Assembly: GCA_037481655.1 (NCBI GenBank)
Contig: JBBFLF010000025.1
Coordinates: forward strand, 1-35,536
Source: Desulfobaccales bacterium
GTDB lineage: Bacteria > Desulfobacterota > Desulfobaccia > Desulfobaccales > 0-14-0-80-60-11
DNA length: 35,536 bases
Reading direction: 5' to 3'
A program made the position numbers and the translations under genes. The notes beneath the pieces were generated by a model, which worked only from the letters and a program-made list of their open reading frames with translations, did no database searches and was not told the origin of the DNA. Of this stretch, positions 17,120-25,452 are shown in pieces; the stretch's first letter is position 1, and the number at the start of each line of letters is the position of its first letter.

Positions 17120-18361
17120 GTGCGCGCGTTGCTGGCATTGGAAGACGGTCTCACCCTGTGGGGCCGGTCCTTCACCGGGCCCGGCGAGGCCAAGGGCGAG
17201 GTGGTGTTCAACACCGCCATGACCGGCTATCAGGAGGTCCTCACCGACCCCTCCTACCGGGGCCAGATCGTCACCATGACCTATCCCATGATGGGGAACT
17301 ACGGGGTCAACCCGGAGGATGTGGAATCCCAGGCCCTCCAGGTGGAGGGCTTCATCATCAAGGAATACCATCGCCACCCCTCCAACTGGCGGGCCAAGAA
17401 CGACCTGGCCCACTATCTCCGGGCCGCCGGACGGCTGGGGGTGGAGGGTTTGGACACCCGGGCCCTCACCAAGCGGCTGCGCACCGTGGGGGCCATGCGG
17501 GGCATCCTCTCCACCGAGGACCTGGACCCGGACCGCCTCGTGCGCCGGGTCAGGGAGGAAGTCCCGGACATGAACGGCCTGGACCTTGTCCCCCAAGTTA
17601 CATGTGTCGCGCCATATTGGTGGGAGGAAATGGGCGGGAGAGGGGGCCAGGGGTCAGAAACCCCTGCCCCCTCACCCACACCCTCTCCCCCAACCCCGTA
17701 TGGGGGCTGGGGAGGGGGTGCGGGGGAGGGCGGGGGGACGGTGTTCCCCCGGCCCTCCCCCGCCGCCGACCTCACCGACCTCTGGCGGCAGCGGTCCGGG
17801 AGGAAGGTGGTGGTGTATGACTTCGGGGTGAAGTTCAACATCCTGCGGTGTCTCAAGGCCCGGGGCCTGGAGGTGCTGGTGGTGCCGGCGGCCACCCCGG
17901 CCGCCGAGGTGCTGGCCCTCGGCCCCGCCGGCATCGTCTTCAGCAACGGTCCCGGCGACCCGGCGGCGGTCACCTATGGCATTGAGAATGTCCGCCGCTG
18001 TCTGGGGCAGGTGCCCACCTTCGGCATCTGCCTGGGGCATCAGCTCATGGGGCTGGCCCTGGGGGGGCGGACCTTCAAGCTGAAATTCGGCCACCGGGGG
18101 GCCAACCAGCCGGTGAAGAACCGCCTCACCGGCCGGGTGGAGATCACCAGCCAGAACCACGGTTTCGCGGTGGATCTGGCCTCCATCCCCGACCCGGAGG
18201 TGGAGCTCACCCACATCAACCTGAACGACCAGACCCTGGAGGGCCTGCGCCACCGGAAGCTGGCGGCCTTTTCGGTGCAGTATCACCCCGAGGCCTCCCC
18301 AGGCCCCCACGACGCCAATTATCTCTTTGATGAGTTCGTTAGGGCGATGACAGACTCTTGA
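17120..18361 (+). CDS. carA: Carbamoyl-phosphate synthase small subunit with repeat-derived insertion
   Basis: Glutamine amidotransferase subunit of carbamoyl-phosphate synthase; it hydrolyses glutamine and passes ammonia to CarB for arginine and pyrimidine synthesis. Visible: the N-terminal CarA domain (about 1-165, with [19 protein letters not shown]), and a class I amidotransferase domain from about 225 with Cys304 in GICLGHQL and His389/Glu391 in [10 protein letters not shown]. Length is 413 residues against a usual 370-385. The excess is a Gly/Pro/Ser-rich insert (about residues 172-215) between the domains, coded by a copy of the dispersed repeat. The start is GTG at 17120, with GAGGTG ahead. 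carB follows only after the inserted OLD-type gene. Confidence 0.93.
17634..17763 (+). repeat. Dispersed multi-hairpin element, copy B (inside carA)
   Basis: A full-length copy of about 130 bases in the carA frame. Three hairpins follow each other: left 17640-17673 (GAGGGGGCCAGGGGT against ACCCCTGCCCCCTC), middle about 17679-17720 with loop GTAT, and right 17722-17761. The left and middle parts match copies C, D and E on this strand and F on the other; the right part matches copy A. It has no stop codon in the carA frame. Coded residues are almost only Gly, Pro, Ser, Thr and Ala. Confidence 0.85.
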
Positions 18362-18555
18362 GTAGGTCAGTTTTTTAAATTATTGAATAGAAATTTAACC
18401 TTGAAAAATTATTTTCTTCTAAACATGGACGAGTCTATTATGTGATTGAGATGTTTCATAATATGCATGAAATAAATACAACACGTGAAAAAAATTTATG
18501 AGGAATAGAAATATTTATTCTTTTTGTGATGAATACCATATATAAGGAGGCTAAA
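18362..18555 (+). other. AT-rich upstream region of the OLD-type gene
   Basis: Base composition changes sharply directly after the carA stop, from GC-rich to strongly AT-rich. The 194 bases have no supported gene. A dyad TTTCAT...ATGAAA (18454-18472) could be an operator. Several AT-rich hexamers could serve as promoters, but none stands out. Confidence 0.5.
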
Positions 18556-20202
18556 ATGGCTCGTATTAAAAAACTTATTATAACAGGATACCGTTCTATA
18601 GGAGATGCGGTCGAAATAAATTTTCCTGAGGGCAAGCCTCTTATTTTAATAGGTGAAAATAATTCAGGCAAATCAAATATAGTTAAGGCCATCAATCTTG
18701 TTTTAGGTCAATTTCATCCTGCGTATCATCAACCAGATGATCACGAATTTTTTGAACGTGACCAAAATAAAAAAATTGAAATTAAAGTAGAGTTTGACCC
18801 AGAAGATCGTTATGGTGATAAATATACTGAAGTTGTCTGGAGGTATAATAAGAATTCACCAGAACCACTTCAATATCGTGGAAGATCAGGACAATTATAT
18901 GGCTCTTCTGATGGTTACATCAGAAGTGAACATCGCGATAGCTGTATATGCGTTTTGGTTGAAGCTGAGCGTAATCTTGCATATCACCTTGGCTATTCTT
19001 CAAAGTGGACGATGCTTAGTCGATTAATGCACCGCTTTCATCGTGCCCTTTCCAATGAACCACAGATTAAAAATAATCTTGAAAAGTTATTTTGTGAGAT
19101 TAAAAATAATTTTTATAATGTTCCACAATTTGGAAATTTTATAATCGAATTACAAAATCAAATGGATAATCTTATAGGTTCAATGACTTATCGACTAAAT
19201 ATCGATTTTGAAGCATATAATCCTGTCAATTTTTTCCACGCTTTACGCTTACAAGCTAAAGAGAATAATGAACCTCGAACTTTGGAGGAAATGGGAACTG
19301 GAGAACAGCAATTATTAGCTCTTTGCTTTGCACATGCATATGCCAAGGCATTCCACGGAGGGATTGTTTTTGTAATAGAAGAGCCGGAAGCACACTTGCA
19401 TCCGCTTGCTCAAAAGTGGCTAGCAAAAAGATTGGATGAATATTGTCAAGATGGTTTACAAATATTGATAACTACTCATAGCCCTTCATTTATTAATATT
19501 AATAATTTAGAAGGAATAGTCTGGGTATTTAAAGAAAATGGACAGACTAAAGTAAAACAAATAAATATTAATGACTTAATAGATTATTGCATAAAAACAG
19601 GCGTTCCACAAAATAAAATAAGTGAAGTTAGTGTTCTGCCATTCTATAATAGCAATTCAACCACTGAGATTCTTTCAGGGTTTTTCAGCAAGTGCGTAGT
19701 TTTAGTTGAGGGGCCAACTGAATCTCTTGCTTTGCCAGTTTATTTATCAAAGTGTGGCTTCGATGTACTTCGGGAAGGGGTTGCAATTATACCAGTGCTT
19801 GGAAAAGGGAACTTGGCTAAGTGGGTGCGACTTTTTTCTGTTTATGGTATTCCATGTTATACCATATTCGACAATGATAGTAATGATGATAGGAATAAAA
19901 GAAAGAGAGAAGATATTTTAAAAGCCTTAAACATACAAAATCCTGATGAATATTTAATTAGTGAAGACATTTTAATCAATAATGATTTTGCAGTGTTCGG
20001 GGTAAATTTTGAAACATCATTAAGGAATATATTTTATGATTATCAAAGATTAGAACAAGATGCTAAAGAAAATGGTATAGAAAGCAAGCCATTTATAGCA
20101 AAATGGGTTGCAGAAAAATTAGATATAAATGATGATAAAAACAATAATGGGAAAGAAATAATTGAAAGATTGATTGACGCAATTAAAAGCAAAATTATTT
20201 AA
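18556..20202 (+). CDS. OLD-family ATP-dependent nuclease (AAA ATPase plus TOPRIM)
   Basis: A 548-residue protein. An ABC/SMC-like ATPase with Walker A GENNSGKS (33-40), the signature-like [19 protein letters not shown], Walker [12 protein letters not shown] (Glu275/Glu276) and His308 in TTHSPSFI is followed by a TOPRIM nuclease domain with Glu385 in VLVEGPTES and the acidic FDNDSND (Asp439, Asp441). This is the layout of overcoming-lysogenization-defect (OLD) nucleases. No UvrD-type partner is present, so it is a lone (class 1-like) OLD and not a Gabija pair. The ATG at 18556 has AAGGAGG at 5 bases. The gene is strongly AT-rich, unlike both neighbours, and sits between carA and carB on the same strand: clear signs of transfer. 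A phage-defence role is inferred from family and context. Confidence 0.92.
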
Positions 20203-20222
20203 TAATAAAAAATATCAGTATC

Positions 20223-23474
<3,252 letters not shown>

Positions 23475-23614: not shown

Positions 23615-25339
23615 TTACTGATGCAGGTTGGAGTTGGGCCGGGCTTCCCTGGCCGGGAAGTAGGCGTTGGTGACGTACTGGGAGACCATGCGCTGGGTGT
23701 TGAAAAAGGAGCCGTTTAAGGCGATGGCGGAGCGGCGCACTTTGATATAGGCCTCGGGCTTGCCGTAATACAGCGGCAATACCAGGCGCTCCAGCTTGTC
23801 ATACAAGGAGGCGGCCTCGGCGGCGTAATCGCCCTCCACCCCCACCTCATCCCCGATGGCCCAGCCGGTGACATGTTCGATGTGGCCCTCCACCCACCAG
23901 CCGTCCAGGATGCTGAGGCTGGGGATGCCATTTAAGGCCGCTTTCATGCCGCTGGTGCCGGAGGCCTCCTGGGGCCGCAAGGGCGTGTTGAGCCAGAGAT
24001 CCACCCCGGCGCACAGCAGTTTGGCCAGCCCCATGTCGTAATTCTCCAGATAGATGACCGGGATGGCATCCTGGAGGGCCTGGGCCGCCTGAAAGACCCG
24101 GCGGATCATCTCCTTCCCCCCTTCGTCCCGGGGGTGGGCCTTGCCGCCGTACAGCACCTGGAATTTGCCCACCCGGCGGGCGATGTCCCGGAGGCGCTCC
24201 AGGTCGGAGAAGAGCAGGTCCGGCCGCTTGTAGGTGGTGGCCCGGCGGGCAAAGCCGATGGTCAGGGTCTGCTCGCTCAGCCTAATACCGGTGCGCCGCT
24301 CCACCTCCGCCAACAGCTCCTGCTTGGCCTGGGCGTGGGCCTGGGCGATCTCATGGAGCGAGATCCCCAGGGCATACCGGAGATAGAAATTGTCCCGGCG
24401 CCATTCCGGGATGCGCCGGTCATAGAGGGCGGCGAAGGGGGCCGAGGTCCAGGTCACCGCGTGCACCCCGTTGGTGATGGCATCCACCGGGTAGCCCGGG
24501 AACATGCCGGTGGAGATCTCCCCGTGGCGCATGGCCACCCCGTTGATGTAGCGGGCGAAGCGCAGGGCCAGGTAGGTCATGTTGAGATTGCCGTTGACGC
24601 AGCAGTGCGTCTCCGCCAGGAGGTGGGCCCGTTTCGTTCCCAGAACCTGTTCCACCAGCTCCCAGGAGAACTGGTCATGGCCCGCCGGCACCGGAGTGTG
24701 GGTAGTGAAGACGCATTGGCGCCGGACCGCCTCCACCAGCTCCTCGGTGGCCGCCTCCCGCTGCACCTCCTCCAGCCGGGCCTCCAAAAGCGACAGGGTG
24801 AGCAAGGCGGAGTGGCCTTCATTCAGGTGGTAGATCAGCCGGTTTTCCGGGAACAGCTCCTTTAAGAGCGCCATGCCGCCCATGCCCAGGACCACCTCCT
24901 GGCAGAGGCGATAGCGGGCATCGCCGCCGTAGAGATGGTCGGTGAGGCTCTGGTCATAGGGGGAATTCTCCGGCAGGGCGGTGTCCAACAGAAAGACGGG
25001 CACCCGATGGCCGCCCAGGCCCTCGATCTGGTAGCTCCAGGCCCTAACCAGCACCTGACGGCCCTCGATGGTGAGCTGGATGCGCTGCGGCAGGGGTTCC
25101 AGGGTCTCCTCGGGCTGCCAGCGGTCGGGGTGCTCCCGCTGGTTGCCCGCCCCGTCCAGCTCCTGGCGGAAGTAGCCCTGGCGATGCACCAGGGTGACCC
25201 CCACCATGGGCACCCCCAGGTCCGCCGCCGAGCGCAGGGTGTCCCCCGCCAGAATCCCCAGGCCCCCGGCATAGGTGGGGATGTGGGACTCCAGGCCGAT
25301 CTCCATGGAGAAGTAGGCGATCAACGGCAGCTTTTCCAT
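23615..25339 (-). CDS. glgP: Alpha-glucan (glycogen/maltodextrin) phosphorylase, GT35
   Basis: Splits alpha-1,4-glucans with phosphate, releasing glucose 1-phosphate; PLP-dependent. The 574-residue length marks the short alpha-glucan phosphorylase class, not the 800-residue animal/E. coli type. Visible: YFSMEIGLESHIPTYAGGLGILAGD at the N-terminus, FTTHTPVPAGHDQF, a NGVHAVTW segment, the ARRATTYKRPDL phosphate/glucan site, and the PLP lysine Lys466 in EASGTSGMKAALNG. The ATG at 25339 is preceded by GGGGGTG. The frame stays open upstream through repeat copy E, but the family N-terminus matches the ATG start. It is transcribed alone from its own promoter, which puts the repeat into its leader. 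Confidence 0.93.
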   Translation of the reverse strand: MEKLPLIAYFSMEIGLESHIPTYAGGLGILAGDTLRSAADLGVPMVGVTLVHRQGYFRQELDGAGNQREHPDRWQPEETLEPLPQRIQLTIEGRQVLVRAWSYQIEGLGGHRVPVFLLDTALPENSPYDQSLTDHLYGGDARYRLCQEVVLGMGGMALLKELFPENRLIYHLNEGHSALLTLSLLEARLEEVQREAATEELVEAVRRQCVFTTHTPVPAGHDQFSWELVEQVLGTKRAHLLAETHCCVNGNLNMTYLALRFARYINGVAMRHGEISTGMFPGYPVDAITNGVHAVTWTSAPFAALYDRRIPEWRRDNFYLRYALGISLHEIAQAHAQAKQELLAEVERRTGIRLSEQTLTIGFARRATTYKRPDLLFSDLERLRDIARRVGKFQVLYGGKAHPRDEGGKEMIRRVFQAAQALQDAIPVIYLENYDMGLAKLLCAGVDLWLNTPLRPQEASGTSGMKAALNGIPSLSILDGWWVEGHIEHVTGWAIGDEVGVEGDYAAEAASLYDKLERLVLPLYYGKPEAYIKVRRSAIALNGSFFNTQRMVSQYVTNAYFPAREARPNSNLHQ

Positions 25340-25353
25340 CGGCACCCCCAGTG

Positions 25354-25452
25354 CGGGAGGGATTGGGGGAGGAGCCAGGGCCGAGAGCCCCTGCCCCGCT
25401 CCCTTGCTTTTCCCCCAAGCCCTCAAAAAGGTGAACGGGATGGAGGGGAGGG
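25354..25452 (+). repeat. Dispersed multi-hairpin element, copy E
   Basis: Aligns with copies B, C and D on the plus strand: GGGGGAGGAGCCAGGG, then GCCCCTGCCCC, then TTTTCCCCCAAGCCCTC and a purine-rich return arm (GGAGGGGAGGG). The middle hairpin is diverged. It lies between the glgP promoter and start codon, so the transcribed strand is its complement. Confidence 0.7.

Follow-up and report, generated by a model that had tools for sequence, protein, structure and literature searches.

The DNA analysed here (hereafter the window) is a stretch of 35,536 bp from a Desulfobaccales bacterium in which carA and carB, the genes for the two subunits of carbamoyl-phosphate synthase, are separated by a gene for a protein of the OLD family. 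The features of the locus are the following:

17120-18361, + strand: carA, carbamoyl-phosphate synthase small subunit (start taken as the GTG at 17120 by comparison with relatives, the mechanical ORF extending upstream to 16751)
18362-20222, + strand: the whole carA-carB interval, an AT-rich foreign segment without a terminator-like site, terminal repeats or a mobility gene
18362-18555, + strand: AT-rich leader upstream of the OLD gene (194 bp, 24.7% GC), with no sigma-70-like site on the + strand
18544-18550, + strand: Shine-Dalgarno sequence of the OLD gene, AAGGAGG
18556-20202, + strand: OLD-family ATPase-TOPRIM gene (ATG at 18556, 548 aa), Class 1 by context
20203-20222, + strand: 20 bp junction from the OLD stop codon to the carB ATG
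20223-23474, + strand: carB, carbamoyl-phosphate synthase large subunit

The AT-rich segment is 1,861 bp in length and takes up the entire gap, from the base after the carA stop codon (TGA, bp 18359-18361) to the base before the carB start codon (ATG, bp 20223). In 500 bp windows its GC content is 33-34%, compared with about 62-70% on both flanks, and that of the OLD ORF is 33%. By codon position, GC is 0.46/0.30/0.22 in the OLD ORF, 0.68/0.48/0.87 in carA and 0.66/0.44/0.89 in carB; third-position GC is thus 22% in the OLD gene and 87-89% in the car genes. A preliminary description of this DNA had proposed that an AT-rich segment exactly fills the space between the two GC-rich car genes and that its gene has a ribosome site of its own, and both proposals are borne out by these measurements and by the AAGGAGG sequence. 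The OLD gene is the sole gene-sized ORF in the interval; an in-frame GTG at bp 18526 is an alternative start. A Shine-Dalgarno sequence for carB is not visible at bp 20203-20222, and the same is true of both congeners.

The predicted OLD protein matches the Pfam families AAA_15 (E-value: 3.6e-34) and OLD-like_TOPRIM (E-value: 9e-19). In PADLOC it matches the Old model (5.5e-42) and also the GajA models, with Old scoring better. Among solved structures, the best match is the Class 1 OLD protein of Thermus scotoductus (Ts OLD; PDB 6p74, E-value: 2.1e-30), and proteins of this class combine an ABC-type ATPase with a two-metal TOPRIM nuclease (PMC7049728). The ATPase module has a Walker A motif (GENNSGKS, residues 33-40), a Walker B region (EEPEAHLHP, residues 275-283) and an H-loop (TTHSPS, residues 306-311). 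In the TOPRIM domain, the metal A residues are E385 (in VEGPTE) and D439 and D441 (in FDND), which are conserved in three aligned relatives; those of Ts OLD are E377, D431 and D433 (PMC7049728). The ATPase and TOPRIM residues that the preliminary description had called intact are therefore present, the latter at the numbers given there. E389, E486 and K511 are plausible counterparts of the Ts OLD metal B acids and basic residue (D381, S478, E480 and R487), as judged from an alignment of four proteins other than Ts OLD, and K511 is absent at the equivalent place in the OLD protein of genome G269. The mean pLDDT of a single-sequence structure prediction was only 40.6, and the model was set aside.

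The upstream neighbour of the OLD gene is carA and the downstream neighbour is carB. Two other classes of OLD system were considered and rejected. First, the GajA protein of Gabija (Class 2 OLD) shares the ATPase-TOPRIM architecture, but no GajB helicase gene adjoins the window gene; no UvrD-like gene follows it, carB being next. Second, a retron effector (Class 3 OLD) does not fit these same neighbours, with no reverse transcriptase gene adjacent, and the match to the NCBIfam model retron_eff_Eco8 falls far short of its cut-off (44 bits; cut-off 250). As its neighbours are carA and carB, with neither a helicase nor a reverse transcriptase gene, the gene falls into Class 1 as defined previously (PMC7049728, PMC10568477), and its predicted product is a stand-alone OLD-family ATPase-TOPRIM nuclease of this known class. 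Like Ts OLD, P2 Old and E. coli YbjD, it has an ATPase with a Walker A motif, Walker B region and H-loop, a C-terminal TOPRIM domain with metal-binding residues and no helicase or reverse transcriptase partner, and its length of 548 aa is similar to that of Ts OLD (525 aa) and YbjD (552 aa) (PMC7049728, PMC13261556). It differs from these proteins in being distant in sequence and in being located within a biosynthetic operon. P2 Old is triggered when RecBC is inhibited and is reported to cleave host tRNA, while the action of YbjD is RecBC-independent (PMC13261556); for Class 1 OLD proteins, evidence of activity against phages is sparse (PMC10568477).

In 28 other genomes of the order, a search with the OLD protein gave nothing stronger than short, weak hits to the ATPase motifs. 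Among 394 further genomes of the phylum, 2 had a match with an E-value of 1e-30 or better, and one of these matches is broken by stops. The ORFs neighbouring these two matches resemble methylase, helicase and restriction enzyme genes (by eye only). The closest relative seen, at 36% identity over 95%, is encoded on a plasmid of Bacillus badius, where its gene immediately follows a type III restriction-modification pair. No relative was found in the genome-contig and viral-contig collections, and phage records gave partial matches only, P2 Old among them. DNA similarity between the window interval and the other intervals of the order was not above that of chance-length matches. The preliminary description had taken the gene to be a foreign one of the OLD family inserted between carA and carB, and with this the family assignment, the composition and the absence of the gene from that position in relatives (including two congeners) all agree. 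Horizontal acquisition is the simplest reading. An integrase-borne genomic island was also considered and rejected: neither an integrase nor a transposase ORF, nor an insertion sequence, is present in the window interval, and the short repeats found there, direct repeats included, do not link its two ends.

The carA-carB gap was then compared across the order, which includes Desulfobacca, with a genome taken as scorable if carA and carB share a contig. The preliminary description had suggested that relatives would reveal an empty site. They do lack the OLD gene at this position, but the gap is filled in all 13 scorable genomes, at 494-5,292 bp; in 8 further genomes, the carB-proximal part of the interval is visible up to the contig end. 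The position is thus not unusual in this lineage, contrary to what had been supposed. For the identification of cargo families, one member of each cargo group was scanned and the remaining genomes were assigned by clustering. The intervals carry a GNAT gene (G001), MNT with HEPN or HepT (G003, G004, G005, G008, G013, G014 and G021), HicA with HicB (G005 and G021), HicB (G008), ParE (G024), a DNA methylase with a 241 aa ORF of no family (G007) and a type II methylase with a restriction enzyme (G022). Other cargo families include PRiA4_ORF3, FecR, glucose/sorbosone dehydrogenase, glycosyltransferase and P-type ATPase. Three low-GC cassettes of defence families are therefore found in different genera: the OLD gene, the methylase with the 241 aa ORF and the type II methylase with the restriction enzyme. 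The 241 aa ORF (L054:1862-2584), which lies beside a type II DNA methylase gene, was not assigned to any family by Pfam, PADLOC or NCBIfam and could encode a restriction enzyme not yet described. In G005, a low-GC 250 aa ORF directly after carA (L052:693-1442) likewise has no match in these three collections.

MNT-HEPN and PRiA4_ORF3 cargo is common to both families of the order, which favours one ancient opening of the interval over many separate openings. Genome-wide, MNT genes are scarce (3 in the window genome and 9 each in G004 and G021), so their presence in so short a gap is not due to abundance. The sample from the order is small and its genomes are related, and the MNT-HEPN and FecR content may be largely vertically inherited, which would mean fewer independent insertions.

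Other gene pairs in the same order are not interrupted in this way: the trpB-trpA gap is at most 274 bp at 22 loci and the atpG-atpD gap is 26-33 bp at 21 loci. A third control pair, pheS-pheT, was unusable as pheS was not recognised directly upstream of pheT. Outside the order, 65 genomes of the phylum have carA followed by carB on one contig, and the median gap (with lengths entered by hand from tables) is 47 bp; it is at most 450 bp in 49 of these genomes and longer in 16. Fisher's test of the order against the other genomes of the phylum gives a p-value near 3e-7, a figure that is descriptive because the genomes are related. As the 16 long gaps indicate, a filled gap by itself also occurs outside the order. 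These gaps often hold one gene common to relatives, for example an ORF that is radical-SAM-like or LpxH-like (by eye), the LpxH-like ORF being on the opposite strand. In a survey of carA loci with carB downstream from many phyla, the gap was at most 450 bp in 43 of 52.

Among three genomes of the window's genus, the interval holds the OLD gene (the window), a GNAT gene (G001) and a stretch of only 494 bp (G002), in which a remnant of approximately 75 bp resembles the MNT-HEPN junction of G003 and G005. As these are three unrelated contents, one of them decayed, the slot turns over and its cassettes are not locked in, contrary to the earlier suggestion that loss of the cassette would be difficult at this position. 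A large variable region between carA and carB was reportedly found in Neisseria in the 1990s. The minimal mobile elements of Neisseria are whole-gene cassettes between conserved genes (Saunders and Snyder 2002, as described in PMC3898611). The intervals of the order resemble them, on that description, in having differing cassettes between the same two conserved genes, with restriction-modification genes common and no mobility genes; here varied whole-gene cassettes were found in 13 complete and 8 partial intervals, across species. The elements outlined in that source differ among strains of one species, while those observed here differ among genera of an order and lie within an enzyme operon. 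A flank-mosaic test among the congeners showed no identity break in carA or carB near the junction, and so gave no direct support for homologous recombination in the flanking genes, by which the cargo may have entered. The defence integration hotspots of E. coli also place defence genes at fixed positions between core genes, but those are carried by mobile elements and are mostly empty (PMC10121019), whereas here no mobility gene was recognised and every scorable genome is filled.

All Pfam family matches among the interval ORFs are on the car strand. Of the opposite-strand ORFs, nine were scanned, the longest among them, and gave no match save a weak one below the cut-off. No terminator-like site was found in the window insert, where 2.5 are expected; this absence holds for the window insert only, and the Desulfobacca interval has 5 such matches against 3.6 expected, which is near chance. 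Co-transcription of a carA-orf-carB arrangement was shown by RT-PCR in Xanthomonas citri, in a report that also cites co-transcription of carA-orf-carB in Pseudomonas aeruginosa (PMC4619228). These loci resemble the present one in having an extra ORF between carA and carB, the ORFs of the two species being mutually unrelated; they differ in that the ORFs are small and have no defence link, and cassette variety is not reported (PMC4619228). Cargo in the car direction, the window insert without a terminator-like site and the precedent of these two species together make a carA-old-carB message likely, and the OLD gene is probably read on it. The coupling of the nuclease to nucleotide synthesis that the preliminary description envisaged would be compatible with the shared orientation and with this lack of terminator-like sites.

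A likely explanation for these observations, and the one that we favour with fair confidence, is that a Class 1 OLD defence gene was acquired at a slot resembling a minimal mobile element and is probably read on a carA-old-carB message. The gene would have been transferred horizontally into an accessory slot between carA and carB that is shared across the order containing Desulfobacca. This slot would have opened in or before the common ancestor of the order, with an MNT-HEPN toxin-antitoxin pair and a PRiA4_ORF3 gene as its probable early contents, and its cargo would have been exchanged since, leaving low-GC defence cassettes in different genera. Recombination between the conserved genes on either side, in the manner of minimal mobile elements, was probably what swapped the cargo; this route is proposed since neither an integrase nor an insertion sequence nor terminal repeats were found. 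With recognisable cargo in the car direction, the likely transcript would be a carA-old-carB message on which OLD has its own ribosome site for translation. By analogy with other OLD proteins, the ATPase module would control the enzyme, which on sensing of phage infection would cleave nucleic acid, either DNA or, as is reported for P2 Old, host tRNA.

Alternatively, carA and carB may have parted once in the ancestor of the order, with genes drifting neutrally in the space between them and defence genes present there as they are mobile everywhere; we regard this as unlikely, though worth weighing. It differs from the favoured explanation mainly in whether the site itself is favoured. The cargo common to both families fits one old opening, several cargo genes have no defence link, and in G019 carA lies mid-contig (L172) with carB on another contig (L059), where the pair may be unlinked. 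Neutral drift, however, would not keep carA and carB within 5.3 kb of each other in 13 of 13 genomes or leave all family-matched cargo in the car direction, and the genomes do both. A more speculative proposal, which we consider improbable, is that the slot is a regulated docking site: carbamoyl-phosphate would govern the expression of its cargo, making defence and toxin-antitoxin modules responsive to an arginine and pyrimidine state that phage infection disturbs, and selection would keep the cargo co-oriented and readable through to carB. It is quite improbable that a single OLD gene fell by chance between carA and carB at a site without special history: although the gene is limited to the window genome within the order and its interval has no DNA in common with the others, the 13 scorable gaps are filled with varied content while the control pairs are uninvaded. 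A misjoining of the AT-rich segment to carA and carB during assembly can practically be dismissed, given that both junctions coincide with gene ends in the middle of a 35.5 kb contig, that the genome is rated 100% complete with 0.15% contamination and that low-GC inserts of unrelated content occupy this position in other genera.

The OLD gene is itself a real foreign insert of a known class, and the novelty lies in the lineage-wide exchange slot inside an operon, of which we found no report for this order in the literature searched. The inside of a one-enzyme operon seems to serve as an exchange slot, with no mobility gene recognised among the scanned cargo, in contrast to the E. coli defence hotspots, which are filled by mobile elements (PMC10121019). 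The slot is a defined place to seek new defence cassettes, as several ORFs there match no family, and offers a clean way to test if cassette exchange can be driven by nothing more than the conserved genes on its flanks.

Some further features of the car genes and their surroundings were observed. At bp 17630-17767, carA has an in-frame insert of approximately 45 low-complexity residues that has the look of a translated repeat element; a similar insert is present in G002, and none in G001, G020 or G021. Only one carA was found in the window genome, which has a second carB paralogue (58% identical) at G000:C1:84590-87787; such paralogues are present in many genomes of the phylum. Just past carB, an alpha-glucan-phosphorylase-like gene (bp 23615-25426) is convergent with it, and an ORF resembling this gene lies between carA and carB in G115, both being named by eye.
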